DNA from: a virus
DNA: 36,053 nucleotides
Virus record (IMG/VR): IMGVR_UViG_3300050821_006356
Location: 1 to 36,053 of that record
Reading direction: 5' to 3' (one strand)
The notes beneath the pieces were generated by a model that searched no databases, had not been told where the DNA came from, and saw only the letters and a list, made by a program, of their open reading frames with translations. Position numbers and translations under genes: made by a program. Positions 2,167 to 31,397 of this stretch are shown piece after piece; within the stretch, counting starts at the first letter, position 1; each line of letters starts with the position of its first letter.

Positions 2167-2408
2167 GCGCCCGGCCGACGCCGCAGGCCGAGGCGGCCAT
2201 CCGGCGCGTGCTCAGACGCGCCGGACGGCGGCTGCTCTCAGATCAGCTCGCGCAGCTCGACCGCGACGCGGTCGGCGACCGAGGCGCGGCCCCGCGCGAC
2301 GTAGGCCGCCTCGACCGCGGCACCGATGATCTCGCGGCGCTCGGCGAGGGTGAGCCGGTCCCAGTCGGCCGCCGCGCTGATCGAGATGCCGCTCGCCACC
2401 GTCGCTAG
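2163..2408 (+). CDS. Possible small gene cut short at the recombinase end
   Basis: A GTG at 2163 overlaps the stop of the zinc-finger gene in the same GTGA style used throughout this operon, so a gene probably starts here. The first 25 residues (VSARPTPQAEAAIRRVLRRA and onward) look like real protein: a basic amphipathic helix. From about 2238 the frame runs antisense through the end of the serine recombinase and turns into arginine-rich sequence typical of a shadow frame. The simplest reading is a gene whose 3' part was lost when the recombinase was inserted or exchanged. It could also be a real gene with a long convergent overlap, or no gene at all. Confidence 0.3.
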   Translation: MSARPTPQAEAAIRRVLRRAGRRLLSDQLAQLDRDAVGDRGAAPRDVGRLDRGTDDLAALGEGEPVPVGRRADRDAARHRR

Positions 2409-3623
2409 CCGCGCCGCCTCGGCCAGGGCCTTGTCGCGGTGAACGCGCAGCAGCTCGACGGCCTCCTGTGCGGCGGCCTCGCCCTCGGCGTCGACGAGCA
2501 TCAGACGCCGCAGCGCGGTGTCGAGCTTGGCCTGGGCGGCCTCGACCTTGGCGGCGGCGGCGCGGGCACGCTCGTTGGCCGAGGTCGTCTCCTCGATCCC
2601 GGCGGCGTAGGCGCGCACCCGGTCGACGATGTAGGCCTCGACGGCGTCGGCGGAGATCGTCACCGGCGCCGAGCATTCGCCGGGCATGCCGCACTTGTAG
2701 AACGCATACCGCCGGGTGGTGTCGCCCCAGCGCGCCGTCTGCCCACCGGCCACCATCCTGGCCCCGCACGAGGCGCAGCGCAGGACACCGAGGCGGGCGA
2801 GCAGGCGCTCGGACTTCGGGGCCCGGCCGCCGGTGGTGCGCATGCGCTGGACGGCGTCCCAGACGTAGCGCTCGACGATCGCCTCGCACGCGGTGGGGTT
2901 GACCGTCTCGCCGTGGCGCAGCTCGCCGACGTAGAGCGGCGAGCGCAGCAGGATCTGCACCGAGCGGTAGCTCAGCTCGTGGCCGTGCTCGGCGAGCAGC
3001 TCACGCACCTTGGCGTAGGGCTGGCCCGCGGCGCGCAGCGCGAAGGCCTCGGCGATGGTCTCGCGCAGATCGTCGACGACCTCGGCGCGGCCGTCGGCGC
3101 CGCGCACGTAGCCCAGCGGCAGGGTGGGATAGGGCACGATCCCGTCGAGGACCCGGCGGCGCACCGAGGCGCCCGAGCGCTCGCGGGCGGTGCGGGCGGT
3201 GTGCTCGGCCATGGCGCCGAGCAGTGTGGCATTGAGCCACTCGGCAGCGGTGCCGTTGGTGATGGCGCCCGAGTCAAGGGCGACGACCTGGCCGCCCGCG
3301 GCCTCGACGCGCTGCACCACCTCGGCCTGCGTCGCCAGCGAGCGAAACAGGCGGTCAAAGTAGGCGGCCATGATGACGTCGGCCTCGCCGTTCTCGACCA
3401 TGGCGACGGCCTCGGAGAGACCGGGCCGCTTGTCCAGGGCGCGGCCGCCGGACACATCCATCTCCTCATAGACCTTGAGCAGGGCGCCGCCGTTGCGGTC
3501 GCACTCGGCCTTGATCCGGTCGGTCTGCTGGCCGGGGGAGGCGAACGAATCGCCCTCGCGGTCGCCGACCTCGGAGACTCGGACAAGGCCGACGATGCGC
3601 TGGGCGCTGGTGGTGGGGGACAT
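2238..3623 (-). CDS. Large serine recombinase (probable integrase)
   Basis: A 461-residue large serine recombinase. Residues 9-150 form the resolvase catalytic domain: the nucleophile is Ser17 in GLVRVSEVG, and YFDRLFRS carries the conserved D-R-L-x-R arginines. The recombinase domain follows (PYPTLPLGYVRGADG and the SVQILLRSPLYVGELRHG region). Next come a zinc ribbon with LRCASCGARM and YKCGMPGEC, then a coiled-coil segment rich in Ala, Glu and Arg, as in phage integrases. Such enzymes join attP and attB without host factors. I chose the ATG at 3623 because it follows AAAGGA in the start-associated sequence. A longer frame to 3653 lacks one. The gene runs against its neighbours and interrupts the plus-strand operon. 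An imperfect inverted repeat upstream is a candidate attP. Confidence 0.93.
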   Translation of the reverse strand: MSPTTSAQRIVGLVRVSEVGDREGDSFASPGQQTDRIKAECDRNGGALLKVYEEMDVSGGRALDKRPGLSEAVAMVENGEADVIMAAYFDRLFRSLATQAEVVQRVEAAGGQVVALDSGAITNGTAAEWLNATLLGAMAEHTARTARERSGASVRRRVLDGIVPYPTLPLGYVRGADGRAEVVDDLRETIAEAFALRAAGQPYAKVRELLAEHGHELSYRSVQILLRSPLYVGELRHGETVNPTACEAIVERYVWDAVQRMRTTGGRAPKSERLLARLGVLRCASCGARMVAGGQTARWGDTTRRYAFYKCGMPGECSAPVTISADAVEAYIVDRVRAYAAGIEETTSANERARAAAAKVEAAQAKLDTALRRLMLVDAEGEAAAQEAVELLRVHRDKALAEAARLATVASGISISAAADWDRLTLAERREIIGAAVEAAYVARGRASVADRVAVELRELI

Positions 3624-3630
3624 GACGGGG

Positions 3631-3643
3631 TCCTTTCGGGGGG
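3631..3643 (-). promoter_or_regulatory. Start-associated sequence of the recombinase gene
   Basis: Read on the minus strand this is CCCCCCGAAAGGACC, ending seven bases before the ATG at 3623. It contains the AAAGGA ribosome-binding core and the run of cytosines shared with six other minus-strand genes between 7936 and 10218. The recombinase is therefore probably expressed under the same translational signal as that gene block. Confidence 0.8.
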
Positions 3644-3664
3644 AGGAATTCATGCCTCACAGTC

Positions 3665-3712
3665 TACTACCTTTCCAGACGCGCGTCGACACTGGCGTCT
3701 AAGAAAGTAGTA
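3665..3712. other. Imperfect inverted repeat, candidate attP or operator
   Basis: Arms 3665-3682 and 3695-3712 are 18 bases each and match at 14 positions when one is reverse-complemented. The outer six bases (TACTAC and GTAGTA) and the inner six (AGACGC and GCGTCT) match exactly. The 12-base centre is GCGTCGACACTG. Total length, imperfect dyad symmetry and position just upstream of a large serine integrase fit a phage attachment site. An operator between two divergent genes is the main alternative. Confidence 0.45.
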
Positions 3713-3723
3713 TGAGCCCCGCC

Positions 3724-3753
3724 TTGCCCCTGCTTGCCCCAGCGGCGTAAACT
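3724..3753 (+). promoter_or_regulatory. Possible plus-strand promoter
   Basis: TTGCCC at 3724-3729 and TAAACT at 3748-3753 are separated by 18 bases, which fits a primary sigma factor promoter. It lies in the gap between the recombinase and the plus-strand operon starting at 3796, where a promoter is expected. The similarity is moderate and there is no transcript evidence. Confidence 0.4.
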
Positions 3754-3795
3754 CTACACAGTCGGATCGGGAGAGTCGAGGTCGGGAGGTTGCCG

Positions 3796-3969
3796 GTGGA
3801 GAGCAGCGAGCGCGAGCGTGGGACGTTCTATGCCACCCTGCGGGTCGAACTGGAGGACGTCACCGAGGCGGTGGCGCGTGAATTCTGGGGGGCGCTGGTC
3901 GACTATCCAATCGACCTCGGCGGCTATATCGCCACCGTCGTCGCGGTGACGCCCGAGGTGGTGCCATGA
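3796..3969 (+). CDS. Small hypothetical protein at operon start
   Basis: A 57-residue protein read from a GTG at 3796, which follows GGGAGG (3784-3789) at a good distance. Its stop overlaps the ATG of the next gene (ATGA), which supports it as the first gene of the operon. The sequence is acidic, with TFYATLRVELEDV and GGYIATVVAVTPE suggesting beta strands with a helix between (TEAVAREFWGALV). I do not recognise the family. It is too short for most automatic calls but has the codon pattern of its neighbours. Confidence 0.6.
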   Translation: MESSERERGTFYATLRVELEDVTEAVAREFWGALVDYPIDLGGYIATVVAVTPEVVP

Positions 3970-4370
3970 GCTTTACCAATGACCTGATCGCGCGCCTGTT
4001 GAGGCGCGAGGATGAGCTGCGGGCCGAGCTTGACCGGGTGATGGCGGCGCGCGCCGCTCTCGGCCCGCGTGCCGCTGTCGCCGAGGCGCTCAAGGCCCAC
4101 GATGCGAGTCACGCTCTGGCGCGCTCGGCGGGGGCCTTCGAGGAGCCCGCCGAGGTGCTCGTGCTCGTGCTCGACGGCCTCGACACGGCGGCCAAGCTGG
4201 CCGTGCGCCTCGGCAATCCGCGGGGCCCGGTGACGCGGTGCCTGCGCGCCCTGCGCCGCGAGGGCCTCGTCGAGCTGGATGCGGCCAATCACTGGCGCCC
4301 GACCGAGCTGGCGCGGCAGCTCGATCTGGAGTCGGCGCCGTCTCGCTGGGCCCAGGCCGCCATGAGATGA
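3966..4370 (+). CDS. Winged-helix DNA-binding protein
   Basis: A 134-residue protein. The first 50 residues form a charged helix (LIARLLRREDELRAELDRVM) that could be a coiled coil and a dimer contact. Residues about 68-115 look like a winged helix: AAKLAVRLGNPRGPVTRCLR is the helix-turn-helix and REGLVELDAANHW the wing, as in MarR/ArsR-type domains. A regulator role in the early region is inferred. The start is fixed by overlap with the preceding stop. The next winged-helix gene, two genes downstream, has the same coiled-coil then winged-helix layout. Confidence 0.7.
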   Translation: MSFTNDLIARLLRREDELRAELDRVMAARAALGPRAAVAEALKAHDASHALARSAGAFEEPAEVLVLVLDGLDTAAKLAVRLGNPRGPVTRCLRALRREGLVELDAANHWRPTELARQLDLESAPSRWAQAAMR

Positions 4371-4675
4371 CCGGCCACTACTTCGGCCCCGACGGCGAGC
4401 CGATCGGGATGTGGGACTGGTGCAGGCTCATGCGCGACGAGGCCAGCCATCGCGTGGCGCTGACCGAGCTGCCCGGCGGCGTCGAGGTCTCGACGGTGTG
4501 GCTCGGGCTCGATCACAATTTCGGGGCGGGGCCGCCGTTGATCTATGAGTCGATGGTGTTCGGCGGGCCGCTCGATCACGTCCAGCAGCGCTACCCCAAC
4601 CGGGTGGCGGCGCTGGCCGGGCACGATCAGCTCGTCGCCGCGGCGCGCGACGCCGCCGTCGGGGCGCCGCGGTGA
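4367..4675 (+). CDS. Conserved phage hypothetical protein
   Basis: A 102-residue protein that starts MTGHYFGPDGEPIGMWDW and contains STVWLGLDHNFGAGPPLIYE. This pattern, with a Y-F-x-x-D-G-x-P-I start and a V-S-T-V-W-L-G-L-D-H block, recurs in small proteins of many phages and prophages, usually without assigned function. Its role is unknown. The rich aromatic content and mixed strand pattern suggest a small globular domain. The ATG overlaps the stop of the winged-helix gene, and its own stop overlaps the next GTG, so it is in the middle of one operon. Confidence 0.75.
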   Translation: MTGHYFGPDGEPIGMWDWCRLMRDEASHRVALTELPGGVEVSTVWLGLDHNFGAGPPLIYESMVFGGPLDHVQQRYPNRVAALAGHDQLVAAARDAAVGAPR

Positions 4676-6300: not shown

Positions 6301-6578
6301 GGCGTCGACCGATTGCTGCGCTCGTGGATGACCTGGCCGCCGCGGTACTCCTGCACGTAGGCGTAGCTGCCCCAGCGATCGGCCAGGGCGATGGCCTCGG
6401 CGCGGCTGGTGCGGTAGAAGCGACTCGGCGTCGGCTCGACGCCGGGCGCGGTCGAGACCGACAAGGTGGTGATGACGTAGAGCGCGGTTCCGTCGTCGTC
6501 GTCGTGTTCGTCGGGCGTCGCCTCGGCGCGATCCAGGCGCCGGGCGATCAGGTTGTCGACCTGCTTGCGGGGGTTCAT
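6297..6578 (-). CDS. Hypothetical protein
   Basis: A 93-residue protein with a basic start (NPRKQVDNLIARRLDRAEA), an acidic spacer (DEHDDDDG), then a likely beta-alpha unit (ALYVITTLSVSTAPG and SRAEAIALADRWGSYAYVQE). It ends in a polar tail. No family is recognised. It overlaps the helix-turn-helix gene upstream and the next gene downstream by four bases each, so all are expressed together. Confidence 0.65.
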   Translation of the reverse strand: MNPRKQVDNLIARRLDRAEATPDEHDDDDGTALYVITTLSVSTAPGVEPTPSRFYRTSRAEAIALADRWGSYAYVQEYRGGQVIHERSNRSTP

Positions 6579-6799
6579 GCTGCGGCCTTGCGACGGCCGG
6601 GGGAGCGGTCGGCGGTGGCGTTCCAGGCCTCGATATCGCGCTCGCGCCAGAGACGGCCGCTCACGCTGCCGTCGCCGTTGTGGGTGACGGCGGCCGGGCG
6701 CGGAAAGTCGCGGCGGCCGTTGACGAGCTGGTTGACGCGGTAGCGCGTGACGCCGAGGATCTTGGCGACCTCGGCGGTGCTGAGCAGATTCTGGGTCAT
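6575..6799 (-). CDS. AlpA/MerR-type helix-turn-helix protein
   Basis: A 74-residue protein of the small helix-turn-helix group that includes AlpA regulators and phage excisionases. LLSTAEVAKILGVTRYRVNQ is the typical first helix pair, and NGRRDFPRPAAV followed by GRLWRERDIEAWNA is the wing and last helix with the usual W-x-x-x-D-I-x-x-W end. It may act as a regulator or as a recombination directionality factor for the serine integrase. The choice cannot be made from sequence. I chose the ATG at 6799, which follows GAGGAACC. A longer frame to 7078 overlaps a membrane-protein gene and is a shadow. It heads the operon that runs to 5522. Confidence 0.82.
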   Translation of the reverse strand: MTQNLLSTAEVAKILGVTRYRVNQLVNGRRDFPRPAAVTHNGDGSVSGRLWRERDIEAWNATADRSPGRRKAAA

Positions 6800-6838: not shown

Positions 6839-6854
6839 TTCCCTTCGGGGGGAA
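6839..6854 (-). repeat. Variant start-associated sequence without an adjacent gene start
   Basis: On the minus strand this reads CCCCCCGAAGGGAACG, two changes from the common start-associated sequence. No start codon follows at the usual distance. The next gene (6799) begins 40 bases further and has its own shorter copy, GAGGAACC. It may be a relic or a second binding site. Confidence 0.5.
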
Positions 6855-7296: not shown

Positions 7297-7938
7297 CTAG
7301 GCCTGGGGTGAGCCGACCGGGCGCCAGCCCTCGGCCTTGGGGCGGTCGGTGCGGATGATGATCGTGCGCACCTGGCTGGCGCCGCCGAGGCCGCGGGCAC
7401 CGGCGGGCGCCCAATGGATGGCGGCGGCCGGGGCGACCTCCTCGATCTCGACCTCGGCAAACCCGCGCTTGCCCAGGGTGGTGGCGCGCTTGGGGCGCAC
7501 CGGCAGCCAGACGTTTTCGCTGTCCGAGCGCCAGCGCTGGCCGTAGCGGGTGGTGACCTCGCGGGCATCCTCGACGATCGAGCCGTCGGTGCGCGTCAGC
7601 ACCGTGCGGGCGAAGGTCCAGGTGTCGCCGTGCTCGGCGAGCGTGGCCTGGGTGCGCTTGAGCTGGGCGGTCATGCCCGAGGCCCATTGGCTGAGAAAGC
7701 CATCGGTGTCGCAGCGCTCGAAAGACTCGGCGGCGTCGCGGTCGTGCTGGGCGGCCTGGGCGCGGAGCTGGTCGGCGCTGTCCGAGCTGGCGACGGCCTC
7801 GACGCGGTCGATGCGGTGATGGCGCGTCAGCCGGTAAGCCACCTCGGTGGCGGCGTCGCGCTCGTTGTCGGCCTGCTTGGTGTCGCTCATCTGCTCGCCG
7901 GTCGGCATGTAGGTGTGGTGCACGGTGAAGTAGGGCAT
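7297..7938 (-). CDS. Hypothetical protein with own promoter and start-associated sequence
   Basis: A 213-residue protein with no recognised family. The first part (MPYFTVHHTYMPTGEQMSDT) is followed by a long charged helical region to about residue 105. The C-terminal half is strand-rich, with RTIIIRTDRPKAEGWRPVG near the end. An enzyme motif is not visible. It begins two codons after nothing but the start-associated sequence at 7943-7958, and a promoter-like box lies at 7971-8006, so it appears to be a single-gene unit ended by the hairpin at 7245-7287. Confidence 0.7.
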   Translation of the reverse strand: MPYFTVHHTYMPTGEQMSDTKQADNERDAATEVAYRLTRHHRIDRVEAVASSDSADQLRAQAAQHDRDAAESFERCDTDGFLSQWASGMTAQLKRTQATLAEHGDTWTFARTVLTRTDGSIVEDAREVTTRYGQRWRSDSENVWLPVRPKRATTLGKRGFAEVEIEEVAPAAAIHWAPAGARGLGGASQVRTIIIRTDRPKAEGWRPVGSPQA

Positions 7939-7942
7939 GTCG

Positions 7943-7958
7943 GGTTCCTTTCGGGGGG
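7943..7958 (-). promoter_or_regulatory. Start-associated sequence before gene 7938
   Basis: The minus strand reads CCCCCCGAAAGGAACC, ending four bases before the ATG. It contains the AAAGGA ribosome-binding core. It is one of seven near-identical copies. Confidence 0.85.
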
Positions 7959-7970
7959 TGGCTGCTGCTT

Positions 7971-8006
7971 GGTACTAAATATACACGGGTGGCTAGGGTT
8001 GGTTAC
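7971..8006 (-). promoter_or_regulatory. Promoter-like box, copy A
   Basis: On the minus strand GTAACC (8006-8001) and TATATT (7983-7978) are spaced by exactly 17 bases, a sigma-factor promoter layout. The interval is conserved with copies B and C (AACCAACCCTA then CCGTGTATATTT). It lies between the stop at 8014 and the start-associated sequence of gene 7938, where a promoter is expected. Overlap with an operator is possible because the whole block, not only the hexamers, is conserved. Confidence 0.7.
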
Positions 8007-8013
8007 GCGCTGG

Positions 8014-8580
8014 TCAGCGCGCTGACATCTCGGCCGCCACGGTGCGCTCGATCTCGCGCAGGGCGCGAGCCCAGGCGGTGACCGACCGCATGGCGGTCTC
8101 GCCGCGGTAGCTCTCGCGCCGGTAGCGCGCCATCCTCGGCGCCGAGATCCGGTCGTAGGCCTCCAGGCACTGCTGGGGCGTGGCGTCCAGCTCGCCCAGG
8201 CCCATGCCGTAGCCGAACATCTTGGCCAGCTTGCGGGCGGCGTCGCGCTGGCGGCGCACGCGCACCAGCTCGCTGTAGCGCTGGCCGTTGCCGTAGTCGT
8301 GACCGAGGTCGCGGCGCGCGTCGTCGTACAGGCCGAGCACCGACAGCTCGGCGTCGAGGCGCTGGGCCTGGGTCACCAGCTCGTCGCGGGTGGGGTAGGG
8401 CTGGGTGGTCATGGTGGTGGTTCCTTTCGGGGGATTGGTGGGGTTGCGCTTGTTGGACGTCCTGGCTGCGCGGCGTTCCTGGGCGGTCGAGCGCCCGGCG
8501 CTGTAGTGGCGAGGGCAGGTCGTCCAGGCCTTGGCGGGGGTGCGCGTGCACTCGCCGAATGAGCAGATCTGGCGAGGCAT
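8014..8580 (-). CDS. Hypothetical protein with possible internal second start
   Basis: The frame from the ATG at 8580 gives 188 residues. The start lies two bases after the stop of the upstream gene, which supports coupling. Residues 1-30 contain ICSFGECTRTPAKAWTTCPR and CPRHYS, with cysteines and a histidine that could bind zinc. An ATG at 8412 in the same frame follows a full start-associated sequence. Starting there gives 132 residues (MTTQPYPTRDELVTQAQRLD onward), a helical protein. No stop separates the two, and the conserved DNA is translated as P-P-K-G-T-T-T. Either one gene has two products, or two former genes are fused. No known family is recognised for either part. Confidence 0.65.
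   Translation of the reverse strand: MPRQICSFGECTRTPAKAWTTCPRHYSAGRSTAQERRAARTSNKRNPTNPPKGTTTMTTQPYPTRDELVTQAQRLDAELSVLGLYDDARRDLGHDYGNGQRYSELVRVRRQRDAARKLAKMFGYGMGLGELDATPQQCLEAYDRISAPRMARYRRESYRGETAMRSVTAWARALREIERTVAAEMSAR
8419..8433 (-). promoter_or_regulatory. Start-associated sequence inside gene 8014-8580
   Basis: The minus strand reads CCCCCGAAAGGAACC, then the ATG at 8412. It matches the other copies except for one fewer cytosine. Unlike the others it lies inside an open frame, which marks 8412 as a likely true start. Confidence 0.82.
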
Positions 8581-8582
8581 GG

Positions 8583-8831
8583 CTAGAGGCCGAGCGCGCG
8601 GCGCTCGACGGCCCAGAAACGGTCGATGGGTTTGGCGAGCTGCGCCTCGTCGAGGTCGCTGGCGCACAGCGCGTTGACCAGCTCGCGGCCGGTGCGCAGG
8701 TGCAGGGCGATCGTGCCCTCGGTGGCGTCGCCGTTGCGGCCGGTCAGCTCGCGGCGCTCGATCCGGCGCAGCACCGAGGCGAGGTTGCGGCTCGTGCGGT
8801 TGAGCTTGGCGATGGTCTGGTCGGTGGTCAT
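8583..8831 (-). CDS. Small helical hypothetical protein
   Basis: An 82-residue, almost fully helical protein (NRTSRNLASVLRRIERRELT and LRTGRELVNALCASDLDEAQ). It has no recognised family. The ATG at 8831 is set by a start-associated sequence at 8839-8854. The frame remains open far upstream, but that part is a shadow of the next gene. There is no promoter box between it and the gene at 8855-9193, so the two are probably transcribed together from copy B. A zinc-finger-like reading frame follows two bases after its stop. Confidence 0.68.
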   Translation of the reverse strand: MTTDQTIAKLNRTSRNLASVLRRIERRELTGRNGDATEGTIALHLRTGRELVNALCASDLDEAQLAKPIDRFWAVERRALGL

Positions 8832-8838
8832 GGTCGTG

Positions 8839-8854
8839 GGTTCCTTTCGGGGGG
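8839..8854 (-). promoter_or_regulatory. Start-associated sequence before gene 8831
   Basis: The minus strand reads CCCCCCGAAAGGAACC, ending seven bases before the ATG. It abuts the stop codon of the upstream gene (8855), leaving no room for a separate promoter. Confidence 0.85.
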
Positions 8855-9193
8855 TTAGAGGTGCATCGGCTGGGCCGAGGTCAGCTCGACCTTGCCGTCG
8901 TCGATGCGGGTGACGGTGACCGGCGCCCGGCTGGCGAGCCCGATCAGCTCGGCCGTGGTCGGCTGGTCGAGGATCACCGAGTAACCGCGGCCGCGATTCT
9001 CGCGGCGCTCGGCCTCGACGTTGAGCGCGGTGGCGACCGCGTGCTGGCGGTCGTAACGCGCGACGGCGCGCTGCGGCAGCGGGCCGCCGGTGTGCGTGCT
9101 CTGCACGCTGTGCAGCTCGGCGCGGTTGTGGGCGAGCATCAGCTCGGCCAGGGTGTGCAGCTCGGTGGGGGTGAAGTCGTTGAGGGAGATCAT
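8855..9193 (-). CDS. Hypothetical protein
   Basis: A 112-residue protein with a helical first half (SLNDFTPTELHTLAELMLAH) and a mixed second half that ends in short strands (PVTVTRIDDGKVELTSAQP). No family is recognised. The T-P-x-E-L-x-x-L-A-E-L start resembles short helix-turn units in small phage proteins. The start at 9193 is fixed by a start-associated sequence. Promoter-like copy B lies about 50 bases upstream. The gene is first in a two- or three-gene unit that goes on to 8014. Confidence 0.68.
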   Translation of the reverse strand: MISLNDFTPTELHTLAELMLAHNRAELHSVQSTHTGGPLPQRAVARYDRQHAVATALNVEAERRENRGRGYSVILDQPTTAELIGLASRAPVTVTRIDDGKVELTSAQPMHL

Positions 9194-9197
9194 GGCT

Positions 9198-9213
9198 GGG
9201 TCCTTTCGGGGGG
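9198..9213 (-). promoter_or_regulatory. Start-associated sequence before gene 9193
   Basis: The minus strand reads CCCCCCGAAAGGACCC, ending four bases before the ATG. It has the GGACC form also seen at the recombinase, in place of GGAACC. Confidence 0.85.
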
Positions 9214-9250
9214 TGGTGGCCGGTGGCCGGTGCTAATGACTGTATCGACA

Positions 9251-9279
9251 AATATACACGGTCGTTTAGCGTTGGTTAC
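9251..9279 (-). promoter_or_regulatory. Promoter-like box, copy B
   Basis: On the minus strand GTAACC (9279-9274) and TATATT (9256-9251) are 17 bases apart, with CGACCGTGTATATTTGTCGA around the -10. It is upstream of gene 9193 and just past the hairpin that ends gene 9343-9540. The flank GTCGAT downstream of the -10 is shared with copy D. Confidence 0.7.
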
Positions 9280-9304
9280 GCGATCGGTCAGCACTCTGAC
9301 AACG

Positions 9305-9334
9305 CATCGAGCCCGCCGGTGGGCGGGCTCGATG
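9305..9334 (-). terminator. Strong hairpin terminator after gene 9343-9540
   Basis: A perfect 13-bp stem, CATCGAGCCCGCC (9305-9317) with GGCGGGCTCGATG (9322-9334), closes a 4-base loop. It lies eight bases past the stop at 9343 on the minus strand and directly before promoter-like copy B. Confidence 0.8.
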
Positions 9335-9342
9335 GCGCTGGG

Positions 9343-9540
9343 CTAGGCGGGGTCGTCGACGTAGGCGGTGATGCTCGCCCGCGAGCGGTGATAGGTGACG
9401 ACGGCGGGGCCGTGGATGGCGTTCTCGGCCTTGCTGCTGGCCGGGTTCCAGGCGGTGTCGCCCTTGGCCAGCTCGACGCGGGCGATGGTCCAGCCCTCGC
9501 CCGCGTCGGTCCAGGTGAGGTCGGCGTTGGTGTAGTGCAT
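9343..9540 (-). CDS. Small hypothetical protein
   Basis: A 65-residue protein, probably strand-rich: NADLTWTDAGEGWTIARVEL, then a polar loop, then GPAVVTYHRSRASITAYVDD. I recognise no family. The high share of aromatic residues and lack of helix-forming stretches suggest a small beta domain. Start at 9540 is set by the start-associated sequence at 9542-9557. A hairpin sits upstream of that sequence, so expression from copy C would need read-through past the hairpin, or a promoter that I did not see. Confidence 0.65.
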   Translation of the reverse strand: MHYTNADLTWTDAGEGWTIARVELAKGDTAWNPASSKAENAIHGPAVVTYHRSRASITAYVDDPA

Positions 9541-9541
9541 G

Positions 9542-9557
9542 GGTTCCTTTCGGGGGG
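9542..9557 (-). promoter_or_regulatory. Start-associated sequence before gene 9540
   Basis: The minus strand reads CCCCCCGAAAGGAACC, followed by only one base before the ATG. It lies immediately after the hairpin at 9561-9586. Confidence 0.85.
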
Positions 9558-9560
9558 TGA

Positions 9561-9586
9561 GCAGGCGCCGCGGGTGCGGCGCCTGC
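9561..9586 (-). terminator. Hairpin between genes 9595 and 9540
   Basis: A perfect 11-bp stem, GCAGGCGCCGC (9561-9571) with GCGGCGCCTGC (9576-9586), closes a GGGT loop (plus-strand sequence). It follows the stop at 9595 on the minus strand. No U-run follows, so it may be a partial terminator or an RNA processing or stabilising hairpin before gene 9540. Confidence 0.7.
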
Positions 9587-9594
9587 GGTGTTGG

Positions 9595-10197
9595 CTAGAG
9601 ACTGGGGACGGCCCAGACGGCGTCGCGGCTGACGGCCTTGGTGGTCATCTGCACGTAGGTGGCGGCCTTCTCGGCCAGCGGGAGCGCGTCGTGCGCGCGG
9701 GCGGCGTCGAGCTTGGCCTCGTCGCGGTCGGCGCGGTTGCGGGCGTCGGTGGCCCATTGGCGGAGCTGCTCCGCGGTCCAGACGATCGTCCGCTGGCTGT
9801 AGTTGTTGGGCTGGTCGGCGACGGCGCGGTATTCGGCGGGCAGCTCGGCCCAGACGACCCACTTGTCGTCACCGTCGAGGTGGTCGGTGGCCAGGCCCAG
9901 GCGCTCGACGATGGTGGCCTCGGCCTCATAGCGCTCGGCCATCTTGCGCGAGCTGGCGGCGTCGCGCATGAGGCGCGCCTCGTGCGAGATGGCGGCCAGC
10001 TCCCAGGCCTGCTTGACGGCGCTCGGGGTGGTGTACTCGGCGGTCACGCGCTTGGGGCCGACCTTGGTCACGCGGGCCACGCGGTTGCGGCCGCGGCTGT
10101 AGATGACGACGAGCTGGCCCACCTCGGGCGACTCGACCTTGTCGGTGAGGTCGGCGCTGGCGACGACGGCGGCGGGGAGATCGGTGATTGCGGTCAT
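9595..10197 (-). CDS. Hypothetical protein, possible KOW-like start
   Basis: A 200-residue protein with no named family. Residues about 25-55 (EVGQLVVIYSRGRNRVARVT then KVGPKRVTAEYTT) form short strands in a pattern like small SH3-type or KOW-type barrels, which often bind nucleic acid. This is a weak resemblance. The rest is a long charged helix region (about 60-185), with two tryptophan-rich blocks (DDKWVVWAELP and IVWTAEQLRQWAT). The start at 10197 is set by the start-associated sequence, and promoter-like copy C lies 34 bases further upstream. A hairpin follows the stop. Confidence 0.7.
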   Translation of the reverse strand: MTAITDLPAAVVASADLTDKVESPEVGQLVVIYSRGRNRVARVTKVGPKRVTAEYTTPSAVKQAWELAAISHEARLMRDAASSRKMAERYEAEATIVERLGLATDHLDGDDKWVVWAELPAEYRAVADQPNNYSQRTIVWTAEQLRQWATDARNRADRDEAKLDAARAHDALPLAEKAATYVQMTTKAVSRDAVWAVPSL

Positions 10198-10201
10198 GGT
10201 G

Positions 10202-10218
10202 GGTTCCTTTCGGGGGGG
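10202..10218 (-). promoter_or_regulatory. Start-associated sequence before gene 10197
   Basis: The minus strand reads CCCCCCCGAAAGGAACC, ending four bases before the ATG. It has one extra cytosine compared with the other copies. Confidence 0.85.
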
Positions 10219-10237
10219 TGGTTGCTTGCTGGTACTA

Positions 10238-10266
10238 AATATACACGGTCGGATAGGGTTGGTTAC
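10238..10266 (-). promoter_or_regulatory. Promoter-like box, copy C
   Basis: On the minus strand GTAACC (10266-10261) and TATATT (10243-10238) are 17 bases apart. Over 36 bases (10231-10266) it differs from copy A at only a few positions in the spacer. It abuts the hairpin of the preceding gene and precedes gene 10197. Confidence 0.72.
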
Positions 10267-10294
10267 ACCTAGGCCAGGAGATCTGGCCTAGGTG
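10266..10294 (-). terminator. Hairpin terminator after gene 10304-10516
   Basis: A perfect 12-bp stem, CACCTAGGCCAG (10266-10277) with CTGGCCTAGGTG (10283-10294), closes a GAGAT loop. It lies nine bases past the stop at 10304 on the minus strand and touches the -35 end of promoter-like copy C. Confidence 0.78.
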
Positions 10295-10303
10295 CAGGCT
10301 CGA

Positions 10304-10516
10304 TCAGCGCGCCTCGATGGTGCGCACCGGGCGGCCGTTGAGCAGCAGCACCCACGCGCCACGCGCGCCAGCGCTGTCGGGCCCGCAGTAGCTGGCCGAC
10401 CGCACCTCATAGGCGCCGGGGCCGAAATCGGCGACCGCGCGCTCGGCGGCGGTGCGGATGCCCTGCGGCGCCTTGCGAAAGCCGCGGCGAGTGGTGGTGC
10501 GATGGGTGGAGGTCAT
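10304..10516 (-). CDS. Small basic hypothetical protein
   Basis: A 70-residue basic protein. The first 20 residues (MTSTHRTTTRRGFRKAPQGI) are rich in Arg and Thr. Then a helix (RTAAERAVADFGPGAYEVRS) and a strand-turn-strand end (ARGAWVLLLNGRPVRTIEAR) follow. No family is recognised. Upstream is AGAAAGGTAGG rather than the full start-associated sequence, seven bases before the ATG. Promoter-like copy D lies about 70 bases upstream. It is the first gene of the minus-strand block next to the divergent plus-strand region. Confidence 0.62.
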   Translation of the reverse strand: MTSTHRTTTRRGFRKAPQGIRTAAERAVADFGPGAYEVRSASYCGPDSAGARGAWVLLLNGRPVRTIEAR

Positions 10517-10572
10517 GAGACCTACCTTTCTGCGGCGGGCGCCGCGTGGGGGGAAATTCGCTCTGCTCTCTC

Positions 10573-10603
10573 TATCGACATATAGTACACGACTGTTTAG
10601 GGT
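10573..10603 (-). promoter_or_regulatory. Promoter-like box, copy D (divergent)
   Basis: The minus strand reads ACAACCCTAAACAGTCGTGT followed by ACTATATGTCGATA. It aligns with copy B over the conserved CCTAAAC, CGTGTA and GTCGATA parts. The -10 would be TACTAT (10587-10582). The -35 hexamer is less like GTAACC. It lies between gene 10516 and the plus-strand genes. Confidence 0.55.
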
Positions 10604-10644
10604 TGTGGGCGAAGAATTCCGTAAGAGCGCGCCGGTCGCTCTGC

Positions 10645-16707: not shown

Positions 16708-16730
16708 TTGCCGCGCATCGGGCGCGGCAA
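16708..16730 (+). terminator. Hairpin after the portal gene
   Basis: A perfect 9-bp stem, TTGCCGCGC (16708-16716) with GCGCGGCAA (16722-16730), closes an ATCGG loop three bases past the portal stop. It probably cuts or reduces read-through into the collagen-like gene. Confidence 0.68.
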
Positions 16731-16758
16731 GAACCAAACCATCCAAGGGGGTGGCGTA

Positions 16759-17460
16759 GTGAGGGCAGTACGCCGAATCACAGCGACGGTGATGGGGCTG
16801 GCCGTCGTGTTCGCATTGAGTGCTGGAGTGGCCAGCGCTCAGACCAGCACCCAGTCCGCAGCACAGAGCATCACCAAGGCCCATGCGGCCAACGCGCTGC
16901 GTGGGCCTCGTGGCCCGCGTGGTTTCCGGGGGCCCGCTGGGCCTCGGGGACCTGCTGGCCCTGCCGGGCCTGCCGGTCCGACCGGCGCCACCGGCGCCAC
17001 CGGCGCCGACGGTCCCGCTGGCCCCGCAGGCGCAACAGGGCCGCAGGGTCCTGCCGGTGCGTCGGGCGACACCAACACCAAGGAATTCACGTTCCGCGGT
17101 GACATCTCGACGCCGACCACCCAGGTGACGGCGCTCGACGGTGTGAAGCTCAACGCCGATTGCAGTGCGCTCGGGCGGGTCACGCTGACCGCCGTGGCGA
17201 CCAACGTGGCCCCGGGCGTGCTCACTGAGCGCGACGGCACTGCGTTCGGCATCGTCACCCGGTTCGGCGAGGCCAACACGACGGCGCGGGTGCTCATCTC
17301 TCCGGTCAGCTCCGCCAGTTCGCGGGCTGATGTCGAGGTGCATTACGTGAGCAACGCAGGGCAGGACACCACCATCAACGTGGCGGCGGTGGACCTGGCC
17401 GACGGTCCCAACGGGCTCGGCACCGCGTGTGTCGTGTACGGGACGGCCACGACGTTCTAA
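16759..17460 (+). CDS. Secreted collagen-like protein, probable cargo (moron) gene
   Basis: A 233-residue protein from the GTG at 16759, with AAGGGGG upstream. Residues 1-27 are a signal peptide: basic start ([10 protein letters not shown]), hydrophobic core ([13 protein letters not shown]), and cleavage near S-A-Q. After a short linker come about 17 G-x-y triplets ([20 protein letters not shown] and on to GASGD), then a likely beta domain of about 115 residues ([16 protein letters not shown] onward) with two cysteines. Collagen repeats with such a start are common in Actinobacteria surface proteins. It sits between portal and scaffold, bounded by two hairpins, where no virion gene is expected. 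It is probably made by the infected or lysogenic host and exported. The longer frame from 16708 crosses the hairpin. Confidence 0.8.
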
Positions 17461-27349: not shown

Positions 27350-28680
27350 CGCTGACCTGTAAGCACGTCCCCGCCAACGCGCAGCAGATCCCCAATCTCA
27401 AGCTGCTGGTGGCGCTGGCCAAGCAGATGGGGGCCAACCAGTCACAGATGGCCGGGGCGATGGCGACGATGATCCAAGAGTCAAACGCCGTCAATCTGAG
27501 CGGCGGCGACCGTGACTCGGCCGGGCTGTTTCAGCAGCGGCCGTCGATGGGCTGGGGCAGCTACGCGCAGGTGACCAACCCCACCTATGCGATCAACAAA
27601 TTCCTCAGCAAGTACATGCCGCTGGTCAAGCGCGGCGTGGCCATCTTCGCGGCGTCTGACCAGGTCCAGGGCTCGGCCTTCCCGCAGGCCCCGGCGCAAT
27701 GGTATGACGAGAGCTGGGCCAACGTCACCCAGCTTACGTCGGGTAAGGACTTCATCGACGCCACCAGTCTCGGCGGGTCGACCAGCTCGACGACCACCCG
27801 CGTGCAGCCCTACGAATTCTCGCGCGGCAACGCGGGCCAGCGCGAGACCTCCTGGGACTGCATCGGCCGCCTGGCCGACGAGGTGAGCTGGGATCGGTTC
27901 ATGCGCGGCGGGGCGCTCTGGTTCGTGTCCGAGAACTACCTCAAGTCCCAGCCGCCGCGGTTCACCTTCTCGGTCGGCGCCCGCGGGGTGACGGCGATCA
28001 ATTTCGACTCTGACTCGCGGCGCAACGCCGCCGAGGCCACCGTCACCGCGCTGGCCAAGCGCTGGTCGGTGCTGCCCGGCGACGTCGTCACCGTCTCGGG
28101 CGAGGGGCCCGGCGATGGGCTCTGGCTGGTCTCAGACGCCCGGCGCACCCTCTGGGACGACACGACCGAGATCACCCTCAAGCGGCCGGTGGCGCCCAAG
28201 CTGGAACCCGCCAACACGACGACCACCGTCACCGTCGGGGGCCTGCCGAGCCTCGGCGGCTCGTCGGCGAGCGGCGCGCCCAAGCTCGCCCAGGACTTCT
28301 ACGCGGCCTGTAAGGCGATCTCAGACCGGGGGTTGCCCTACGTGTACGGCGGCGGCCACGGCGCCGTCGGCGTCGCCTCGGGCGGTGGCTTTGACTGCTC
28401 GGGCTCGGTGTGCGCGGCGCTCGGCGCGGTCAAGCTCGGCTACCAGCTCGGCGGCCCGTGCGCGGTCTCGGGGACGATGGCCACCTCGTGGGGCGTCGCG
28501 GGACCCGGCAAATACTTCACCGTCTGGGCCAACCCCGAGCACGTCTGGGTCCAATTTCACGGGTTCCCCAATTGGCGCTTTGACACCTCGCCCCACGGCG
28601 ATGGCCCCCCCGGCCCGCGCCTGCGCAAGTCGGCGCGCTCGACGGCGGGATTCACTCCCAAGCACTGGCCGGGTCTGTAA
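27346..28680 (+). CDS. Baseplate hub protein with transglycosylase-like and NlpC/P60 domains
   Basis: A 444-residue multi-domain protein. Residues about 1-125 look like a lysozyme or transglycosylase domain: [11 protein letters not shown] with Glu45 as likely acid, then [16 protein letters not shown], the G-L-F-Q-x-x-P mark. Residues about 150-285 ([39 protein letters not shown] and [20 protein letters not shown]) resemble the later part of phage hub proteins. Residues about 305-440 look like an NlpC/P60 peptidase: [14 protein letters not shown] with Cys351, then EHVWVQF with His399. It would cut both glycan and peptide bonds during tail entry. It overlaps the hub N-terminal gene. Confidence 0.82.
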
Positions 28681-31397
28681 TGCCCCAGCTCGATCAGCTA
28701 TTCGCCAAGATGGGCACGCCGCCGTTCTCGGGCCCGCAGTGCTGGGAGGGCACCGTGGTGGCCACCGACGGCTCGGGGACCTACATCGTGCTGGAGACCT
28801 TCGACGGTCGCCTGCGCTGGGGGCCCTGTCAGCCCCCAGGAGCCTCCGTAACGGTCGGCCAGCGCGTTTCCGTCGCCATGTCCCAGGACGGTGTCCTATG
28901 GCTGCTCGGGGGCGCAGGTGGCGGCGGAGCGCCCGGGCCGCCAGGGCCCGAGGGCCCGATGGGGCCGAAAGGCGACACCGGACCGACCGGCGCCACCGGC
29001 GCGCCGGGCGCCGCGGGCCCGACGGGGCCGCAGGGCGGCAAGGGTGACAAGGGCGACACCGGCGCCGCCGGGCCGACGGGGGCGACGGGCCCAACCGGAC
29101 CGACGGGCCCCCAGGGCGTCAAGGGTGATACCGGCGCCACCGGCGCGACCGGCGCGCCCGGCAAGGACGGCGTGGGCTATGAGGCTTCGCCCGTCGGGGC
29201 GGTGCTCACCTTCCCCGGTAAGAACCTGCCCGTCGGCTACGTGCTCGCCGACGGGCACACCTACGCCAAGGGCACCTATCCCCAGGGCTATGACTTCGCC
29301 GTTGCCGAGGTCGCGGCCGGTAACCCGCTCTGGACCGTCAACGCCGCCGCCCAGACGTTCACCGTGCCCGACCTGCGCGATCGGTTCCTGTACTCCTCGT
29401 CGTCGGCGGCGCTCGGCTCGGCCGGTGGTGAGGCGGCCCATACGCTGGTCAATGGTGAGATGCCCGCGCACGCGCACAGCGGCGCGACGACGGGCGGCAC
29501 CACCGGCGCAGACTCGCCCGATCACGCGCATACGCCGTCCGGCTACGGCAATTTCATAGCGACGAACACGGGCGGGACTTACACCGGGTTCGCGGGCGGT
29601 GGCGCGGGCGGCGTGGTCAGCACCGGAGCGGCCAGCGGCGTCACCGGGGGCACCGCGGGGGCGAACGTTCGCCACGCCCATAGCGTGCCCGCGCTTGGGA
29701 TCTACAGCGACGGCGGCGGCGGTGCGCACAACAACATGCCGCCCTATGTCGTGCTCGCCTTCATCGTCAAGGTGTGGGGCGTCGTCAACAACGGGTCGAC
29801 GCTGGTCGGCCCGCCCGGCGCTCGCGGCAACACGACCTATCTCTACACCGGCGTGGGCACGCCCCCGGCGGGCACGTTCCCGGGAGAGATCGACGGCGAC
29901 TGGGCGGTGCGCAAGGGCGACGGGGAGAATTTCCAGCGCCAGGCGGGCGCGTGGGTGGACCTCGGGTTTACCAACCGCTCGACGGCGGCGGTCAACATGA
30001 CGCGGGCGTACCGAACTGCTGCGTTCACAGTGGCATCGCAGACATGGCAGGCGATCCCACTCGACACGATCGCCTACGACCCAGGTGGCTATTTCAACAA
30101 GACGACGGGCAAGTACGTCGCGCCCACCACTGGGACATACCTGTGCACCGGAGCAGTAATGTTTGCGCCCGGAACCACCGGAGCCATTGCCGGGCTGTCG
30201 ATCAACGGGGGTCTACCGTCGATGCGCGGCGGCGCGGCGGTGAACGTCCCATCTCCGCTGGGCATCGAAGCACCTACGGTCACGGACATCGTTTTCTGCA
30301 ATGCGGGCGACACGATCGCGCTGGCGTGCTTCCCGGGTGGCGCGGATGCTCTGTACGTCGGGAATGCCGCCACGACGTACCTGTCGGTCGTGCAGATCGC
30401 GGCCGGGCCGGGGCCGCAGGGGCAGCGCGGCTCTAATTGGTTCACCTACACCGGCGCGGGGACGCCGCCAGCGGGAACGTTCCTCAACGAGACCGATGGC
30501 GACATGGCGACGCGCAGCTCGGACGGCGAGGTCTTCCGGCGCATCAGCGGCGCCTGGTCAGATCAGGGGTGGAAGGTCGCGACGGGGTCGAACACGATGG
30601 ATACGTGGCACCTGGTGGGCACGGCGGGCGAACCTGCGTTCCAGAATGGATATGTGAACTACGGCGGCGGCTTCGCTGCGTGTGGCTTTCGGCGGTTCCC
30701 CGACGGCAAGGTCAAGCTCAAGGGGCTGGTCAATGGACCGGGCGCGTCGGCGGTGATCTTCACTCTGCCGCCCGGCTACCGGCCGCCGGGCGAGACCAAG
30801 CTCAACGTGGTGCAGACCAATAGCGTGGTCGGGCGCGTCGATGTTGCGGCCACCGGCGAAGTGGGCGTGTCGGTAGGCACGTCGGGCTGGGTGTCGCTGG
30901 ACAACATCGAATTCGATACCAACGCCGTCTCGGTAATGAGCGCGGGGGCGATGGGACCACCGGGACCGGGCAGCGGCGCGTACAGCGTGCAGCGCACCTG
31001 GATCGGCTATCCCGGCGCGTCGGTCGAGTCGTACACCGCGACGTTCACGACGTCGCAAAGTCCGCTGTCGCTGAGCATTACGCCGAGCGTCCCTATCTGG
31101 TGGGAGGTCTACGGAAAATTCGGGCTCGTGACCAGGGTCGATGCCGCCTACAACTACGCGACCGCCTACCTGATCCTTAACCCGGTCGATCAGGACGGGA
31201 TCAACCAGGGGATTCACTACATCACGCAGCACTCACAGGTTCAGACCATCGAGGGCTATGAGGTCAAGCGCATGTTTCGCCTCGCTGCTGGCACCACCTA
31301 CACCGTCACCTGGATTTTCAACCCGAGCGCGGGCTCGTGGAACTACTACCAGGGCCGCTCTCAGACCTATCTCGATGCGAAAGCGTGGGCGCAATGA
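28680..31397 (+). CDS. Baseplate spike / tail fibre with collagen-like, collar and C1q-like domains
   Basis: A 905-residue protein. Residues about 1-80 form an OB-like spike start ([33 protein letters not shown]). Residues 85-160 are collagen-type triplets ([20 protein letters not shown]). Residues 165-365 are a tail-collar domain: [27 protein letters not shown], histidine pairs MPAHAHSG and RHAHSVP, end [18 protein letters not shown]. Two linkers, each with GTPPAGTF, flank a C1q-like domain at about 440-575 ([40 protein letters not shown]). Then comes a common fibre domain ([16 protein letters not shown]) and an unmatched end. It is likely the receptor-binding part. Base composition shifts near 30000. 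Confidence 0.82.

Follow-up and report, generated by a model that had tools for sequence, protein, structure and literature searches.

Promoter-like boxes with a conserved spacer precede four leftward gene units in a 36-kb virus record

In the cluster K mycobacteriophages Anaya, Adephagia, TM4 and Pixie, as described in the available parts of the reports, several units per genome carry a near-identical promoter-like element with 17-18 bp spacing, the extended start-associated sequence (ESAS), upstream of a start-associated sequence (SAS) (PMC11373665, PMC3203893). The seven ESAS of Adephagia are presented in that portion as SigA-like promoters with 17-18 bp spacing and an inverted repeat, at which a site for an as yet unknown regulator has been proposed (PMC11373665). 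The Microbacterium phages AnnaSerena and Krampus of cluster EF have a weakly conserved upstream ESAS centred on GTAGAG, according to the accessible sections of their description (PMC7302621). The same partial sources call the function of SAS and ESAS unknown for clusters K and EF (PMC3203893, PMC7302621), and the available part of a survey of 188 cluster K phages reports no functional test (PMC12699233). Here we analyze the whole IMG/VR virus record IMGVR_UViG_3300050821_006356 (36,053 bases, 70% GC; hereafter the window), in which four copies (A to D) of a promoter-like box lie on the minus strand, each opening one leftward unit. By sequence comparison the layout is of a known kind, paralleling the SAS/ESAS of clusters K and EF; the sequence of the box itself is unrelated and was not found in the collections searched. 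The four boxes, each read as the promoter of its unit, are listed below.

7978..8006, minus strand: box A, GTAACC AACCCTAGCCACCCGTG TATATT, exact; putative promoter of unit A
9251..9279, minus strand: box B, GTAACC AACGCTAAACGACCGTG TATATT, exact; putative promoter of unit B
10238..10266, minus strand: box C, GTAACC AACCCTATCCGACCGTG TATATT, exact; putative promoter of unit C
10582..10610, minus strand: box D, GCCCAC AACCCTAAACAGTCGTG TACTAT, with the -35 lost and the spacer and -10 kept; putative promoter of unit D

With up to two mismatches allowed, GTAACC-N17-TATATT matches the window three times, at A, B and C, and three exact hexamer pairs at a fixed spacing against 0.07 expected rule out a chance origin of the boxes; three matches were seen in none of 100 shuffles. 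Box D is a genuine but diverged copy, as judged from its matrix ranks, from simulated windows and from a sequence that it has in common with B. It ranks fourth in the window with a matrix of all four copies, D included (35.5, the next site scoring 12.2 and the boxes 35-48), and fourth again with the A-C spacer matrix (19.1, next 12.6), for which the maximum of 200 simulated windows was 20.5; in a second simulation, none of 300 windows reached either the spacer score of D or its spacer-plus-minus-10 score. The lost -35 puts D fifth by the full 29-base A-C matrix, its score of 14.8 being below the 15.4 of an unrelated site. Just past the -10 of both B and D lies TGTCGATA, an 8-mer occurring three times in the window against 0.24 expected. 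The initial annotation had described GTAACC, 17 bases and TATATT on the minus strand, which is exact in A, B and C, and a partial alignment of copy D, which is borne out: compared with each of A, B and C, D keeps 12-13 of the 17 spacer bases, only 2/6 of the -35 and 3/6 of the -10. The outer coordinates given in the initial annotation (7971-10603) were a few bases off, the boxes spanning 7978-10610.

The reading of the boxes as leftward promoters, already put forward in the initial annotation as a promoter-like reading, is well supported by their sequence, because A-C hold three of the four best -10 hexamers of a 36-kb genome of 70% GC, have 17-bp spacing and lie 39-57 nt before start codons. 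Only four TANNNT hexamers with at least 5/6 match to TATAAT occur on the two strands of the window, and three of them belong to A, B and C. The -10 agrees with TATAAT at 5/6 positions in A-C and at 4/6 in D (TACTAT), with a hexamer spacing of 17, and the -35 agrees with TTGACA at 3/6 in A-C and 0/6 in D. The distance between the -10 and the start codon is 39 bases in A, 57 in B, 40 in C and 65 in D; with transcription beginning 7 nt beyond the -10, the leaders would be about 33-59 nt long. The fourth hexamer lies on the opposite strand.

10581-10586, plus strand: TATAGT, a rightward -10-like hexamer overlying the -10 of D (10582-10587, minus strand)

A divergent promoter towards the rightward genes is possible at this hexamer. 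Two other promoter types were considered and rejected. An extended -10 does not fit, the triplet preceding the -10 being GTG and not TGN. Promoters of extracytoplasmic function (ECF) type sigma factors (AACC ... CGT) have a spacing of 16-17; the 13 bp from the -35 motif to CGT in the boxes are too short, and D is without the -35 part.

Conservation among A-C ends at the box edges: 24 of the 29 columns are invariant (12/17 in the spacer and 6/6 in each hexamer), compared with 6/60 upstream and 9/40 downstream. The spacer core reads AAC-N-CTA-NN-C-NNN-CGTGTA. It had been claimed that the spacer is conserved beyond the need of a promoter, and the 12 invariant positions in A-C, together with the retention of the spacer in D, agree with this. 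Because D keeps the spacer and has lost the -35, constraint seems to act on the spacer as such. This pattern is opposite to that of a plain sigma promoter, and it is the best argument for a spacer that is read by another protein.

The leaders of A, B and C contain CCCCCCGAAAGGA(A/C)CC, and exact copies of its core, the SAS CCCCGAAAGGA, precede the first genes of these three units. The element exceeds a ribosome-binding site in length and stands directly in front of several start codons, as expected of a SAS.

7946..7956, minus strand: SAS of unit A, CCCCGAAAGGA, exact copy
9201..9211, minus strand: SAS of unit B, exact copy
10205..10215, minus strand: SAS of unit C, exact copy
7297..7938, minus strand: first gene of unit A, 213 amino acids (aa), phrog_5855, function unknown
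8855..9193, minus strand: opening gene of unit B, 112 aa; 8583-8831 and 8014-8580 come next in the unit
9595..10197, minus strand: opening gene of unit C, 200 aa; 9343-9540 comes next in the unit
10304..10516, minus strand: gene of unit D, 70 aa

Genes within the units are also preceded by exact copies of CCCCGAAAGGA (8422, 8842 and 9545), as is the integrase gene (3631), and a copy with one mismatch is at 6840, so that there are eight matches (seven exact and one with a single mismatch) against 0.32 expected; an ATG follows within a few bases of each of the seven exact copies. The 3' end of 16S rRNA in actinobacteria is complementary to the GAAAGGA part. The earlier statement that the boxes lie upstream of genes with a SAS is exact for A, B and C; in D, the SAS seems split (10517-10555, minus strand) into CCCCCC, a GC hairpin (GCGGCGCCCGCCGC) and GAAAGG.

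At 17-bp spacing and upstream of three of the seven exact SAS copies, boxes A-C have the layout of ESAS. In Anaya, TGTTGACATGCATACAG ... TACTGTATGCATATCAACA is followed by GGGATAGGAGCCC and the start codon; several of these regions have GC-rich, hairpin-like inverted repeats farther upstream, as boxes B and C have strong RNA hairpins before them. The SAS is GGGATAGGAGCCC in cluster K and CCCCCCGAAAGGAACCC in the window; that of cluster EF, GGGAAAGGACCCC, is close to the GAAAGGA(A/C)CC of the window in the available description (PMC7302621). The elements upstream differ more. The ESAS of cluster K show clear, though imperfect, inverted repeats of 15-17 bp over a TTGACA-type -35, whereas the window box has a poor -35 and no significant inverted repeat. 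The cluster EF box is also unlike the window box in sequence, as far as it is described in the accessible text (PMC7302621); in AnnaSerena, AT-rich elements like TAGAGT or TATAGT lie upstream of GGGAAAGGACCCC. Set side by side, the upstream regions of Anaya, AnnaSerena and the window differ, and those of the window do not follow the cluster K consensus. Because it agrees with ESAS neither in sequence nor in inverted repeat, the window box is, on these comparisons, not an ESAS. The EF phages are moreover described, in the same partial source, as lytic and without integrase or repressor, whereas the window phage has a serine integrase (PMC7302621).

Repeats between the units are as follows.

10266..10294, minus strand: 12-bp hairpin at the end of unit D, directly adjoining box C; resembles a terminator but has no T run; z -6.6
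9305..9334, minus strand: 13-bp hairpin at the end of unit C, ahead of box B; resembles a terminator but has no T run; z -5.7
8006..8026, minus strand: two overlapping 7-bp inverted repeats from the end of unit B to box A, no significantly stable hairpin, z -0.2

GTCAG-N4-CTGAC palindromes, of which the window has no other exact copies, are located at 8013-8026 and 9287-9300, just upstream of A and B.

On balance, we favor the explanation that the boxes are promoters of the sigma-A type whose spacers all contain a site for a single phage regulator, probably a repressor; transcription from the boxes, the regulator, its sign and its identity are what we infer. Host RNA polymerase with the housekeeping sigma factor would read the boxes as leftward promoters whose -10 is very good, whose -35 is poor or missing and whose hexamers are 17 bp apart. 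Each box would start its own short leader, which in A, B and C would carry the conserved ribosome-binding element before the first gene, and neighboring units are probably insulated from each other by the hairpins that end D and C. One phage-encoded DNA-binding protein would most likely bind the spacer, covering it and the first bases of the -10, and because one protein would bind all the spacers, it would switch all four units together. A repressor, keeping lytic or early genes off in the prophage, would be likelier than an activator because the -10 is near consensus and operators in the spacer position have a precedent: in the available part of the report on mycobacteriophage BPs, there are several repressor operators, which serve several promoters, and one, at PR, sits between the -35 and the -10 (PMC4557955). 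A further precedent for a regulator site in such promoters is the inverted repeat of the Adephagia ESAS (PMC11373665).

Several observations weigh against this explanation. A sigma-70 consensus scan reported none of the four boxes because their -35 is poor. The invariant columns permit a dyad centered in the spacer (TANNCNNNNGNNTA; T12-A25, A13-T24, C16-G21 and A8-T29), but the best shared dyad, with four invariant pairs, is not significant by column shuffling (P = 0.083), which rejects a clear palindromic operator; an inverted-repeat scan reported none within the boxes. The hairpins at 10266-10294 and 9305-9334 lack T runs and were not called terminators in the terminator scan, so we only infer their terminator role. 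By hand alignment, A and C resemble each other in the leader beyond the box about as much as in the spacer, and part of the resemblance may therefore come from recent duplication. The searches turned up the box in no other phage, so that any case for selection over recent duplication comes from one genome. Candidate regulators do exist, which speaks for the explanation. They are a winged-helix protein at 3966-4370 that passes the Pfam cut-offs for HTH_IclR and HTH_24, and a small helix-turn-helix (HTH) protein at 6575-6799 whose HTH_17 match is below the cut-off; neither is tied to the box. The earlier proposal of an operator for a repressor or activator is therefore reasonable but unproven: the extra spacer conservation speaks for it, and the dyad result and the absence of an identified regulator speak against it.

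The main null explanation, which we regard as rather unlikely, is that the boxes are unregulated sigma-A promoter cassettes, serving for instance prophage-expressed genes, which multiplied within this genome as promoter, leader and ribosome-binding site were duplicated together; the spacer identity would then reflect shared ancestry and not an operator. The likeness of A and C over about 79 bases at 77% (box, leader and SAS), the presence of TGTCGATA past the -10 of both B and D, and the lack of a known regulator speak for such cassettes. However, identity breaks off abruptly at GTAACC, A and B have the box but not the leader in common, A and C the leader but not the upstream flank, and the spacer was kept in D after the loss of the -35. 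The boxes may also be sites of another sort, for replication, packaging, recombination or a transposition junction, as a short repeat at unit borders in one genome arm might suggest; but they are oriented as the genes, always lie 39-65 nt before a start codon and contain the best -10 hexamers of the genome, which makes such a non-transcriptional role very improbable.

An activator is the main mechanistic rival. Promoter function would then depend on a positive factor specific to the phage, such as a cII-like activator or an alternative specificity factor, with AACNCTA being read instead of a -35. The repeated phage-specific promoters of phiC31, where an analogous repeated block stands upstream of many early genes, probably work in this way, and such a factor would account for the weak -35 in A-C, its absence in D and a conserved part that begins at the -35 position. 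On the other hand, the -10 is close to consensus, a poor -35 is tolerated by the sigma-A promoters of actinobacteria, and no sigma-factor family was found among the scanned early-region proteins (a subset of the window genes), one HTH protein having a sub-threshold Sigma70_r4 match; we thus consider it improbable. Little credence can likewise be given to a more far-reaching version of regulation by a repressor, in which the spacer motif AACNCTANNCNNNCGTGTA would be the operator of an unrecorded immunity system, one repressor holding four insulated leftward units (five with the integrase) and, at D, also a rightward promoter with TATAGT (10581-10586) as its -10, and D would act as the lysis-lysogeny switch between the leftward and the structural genes.

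The BPs operator and the repeated elements of phiC31 differ from the box in sequence. The BPs operator is, in the accessible sections, a 12-bp palindrome, CGACATATGTCG, with a variable half site (PMC4557955); its half site is absent from boxes A-D, D having just ATATGTCG next to the -10. The phage phiC31, which has a serine integrase and a terminase 30% identical to that of the window, carries the repeated block GGGTTGCCGACTCCCTTA upstream of its early genes, unrelated in sequence to the box, and separately a perfect palindrome, CCTACTCACGTGAGTAGG, the site of the phiC31 repressor (CIR). Neither matches as an identity of the box, CCTACTCACGTGAGTAGG differing from the box sequences, and the best site in a matrix scan of phiC31 scored 8.8 against 35-48 for the boxes, so that no window box was found there. 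Cluster O phages have 17-bp dyad repeats that are not tied to promoters in the available text (PMC4351075).

A box pattern with 21 specified bases had no match in IMG/VR and the box pattern none in GTDB genome contigs. A looser pattern had one match in IMG/VR (L005), antisense inside a 715-aa open reading frame of a 36% GC contig, which is taken as chance. The window portal protein has 40 relatives in IMG/VR, the closest full-length ones being 70-78% identical, and none in GTDB contigs. The motif search in related genomes that had been proposed as a check turned up no related phage with the box: 24 of the 40 portal relatives were scanned as whole records with up to three mismatches, with 0/24 matching, and the best matrix score outside the window in the fetched portal loci, L005 aside, was 14.6. 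Among the 73 IMG/VR loci sharing the 7297-7938 protein, the best matrix scores reach 16.1 against 35-48 for the boxes, the pseudocounts and background differing slightly between the two scans. Since diverged boxes escape exact-pattern scans and the collections may lack records very close to the window, these negatives show no more than that the box is not widespread.

A degenerate candidate copy lies near the integrase gene.

3751..3779, minus strand: candidate box E, TCGACT CTCCCGATCCGACTGTG TAGAGT, 127 nt before the integrase start codon

E matches box C at 13/17 spacer bases and ranks sixth by the full matrix (10.7) and eighth by the spacer, which is not significant alone; it is suggestive because of its location, and it may be a fifth copy preceding the integrase. 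Between E and the serine integrase gene (2238-3653, minus strand), an imperfect inverted repeat at 3665-3712 (CTACTACCTTTCCAGACG / CGTCTAAGAAAGTAGTAT) is attP-like. The integrase has just remote matches in 2 of the 24 whole records of portal relatives.

The window genes include those for TerL, portal, scaffold and major head protein as well as RusA (303-761), and small genes without known function form a leftward cluster from about 5.5 to 10.5 kb. Apart from the IMG/VR relatives, the nearest TerL and portal matches are in Streptomyces, Arthrobacter and Thermobifida phages (26-44%), and the host is presumably an actinobacterium. No IMG/VR relatives were found for TerL or for the proteins at 9595-10197 and 8014-8580, and PADLOC found nothing in the seven leftward genes examined. 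The unit A protein (7297-7938) has relatives in the 73 IMG/VR loci, which differ widely in GC, and in 23 phage records, and no match in the 24 whole records of portal relatives. The gene at 8014-8580 (minus strand) has an exact SAS inside its frame, before an in-frame ATG at 8412, and may for this reason give two nested products of 188 and 132 aa; the 188-aa form has a Cys/His-rich N-terminus. Collagen-like repeat DNA occurs at two separate places, 16708-17460 and 28680-31397 (plus strand), and the gene at 16708-17460, between the portal and scaffold genes, has tail-fibre and collagen-like family matches. In one portal relative (L018), an operator-like palindrome, AAATCTACACCTACTGTAGATTT, occurs in two tandem copies at 4490-4560, about 2 kb before the portal gene.

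The layout of hairpin, repeated promoter box, SAS and small gene has so far been described, in the parts of the literature available to us, in cluster K mycobacteriophages and in some phages of Microbacterium, with its function unknown, and the window adds another, unrelated phage lineage. Box D, without a -35 but with the spacer, points to the spacer as the regulatory element. The boxes would also provide a compact promoter set for a virus without a known host.

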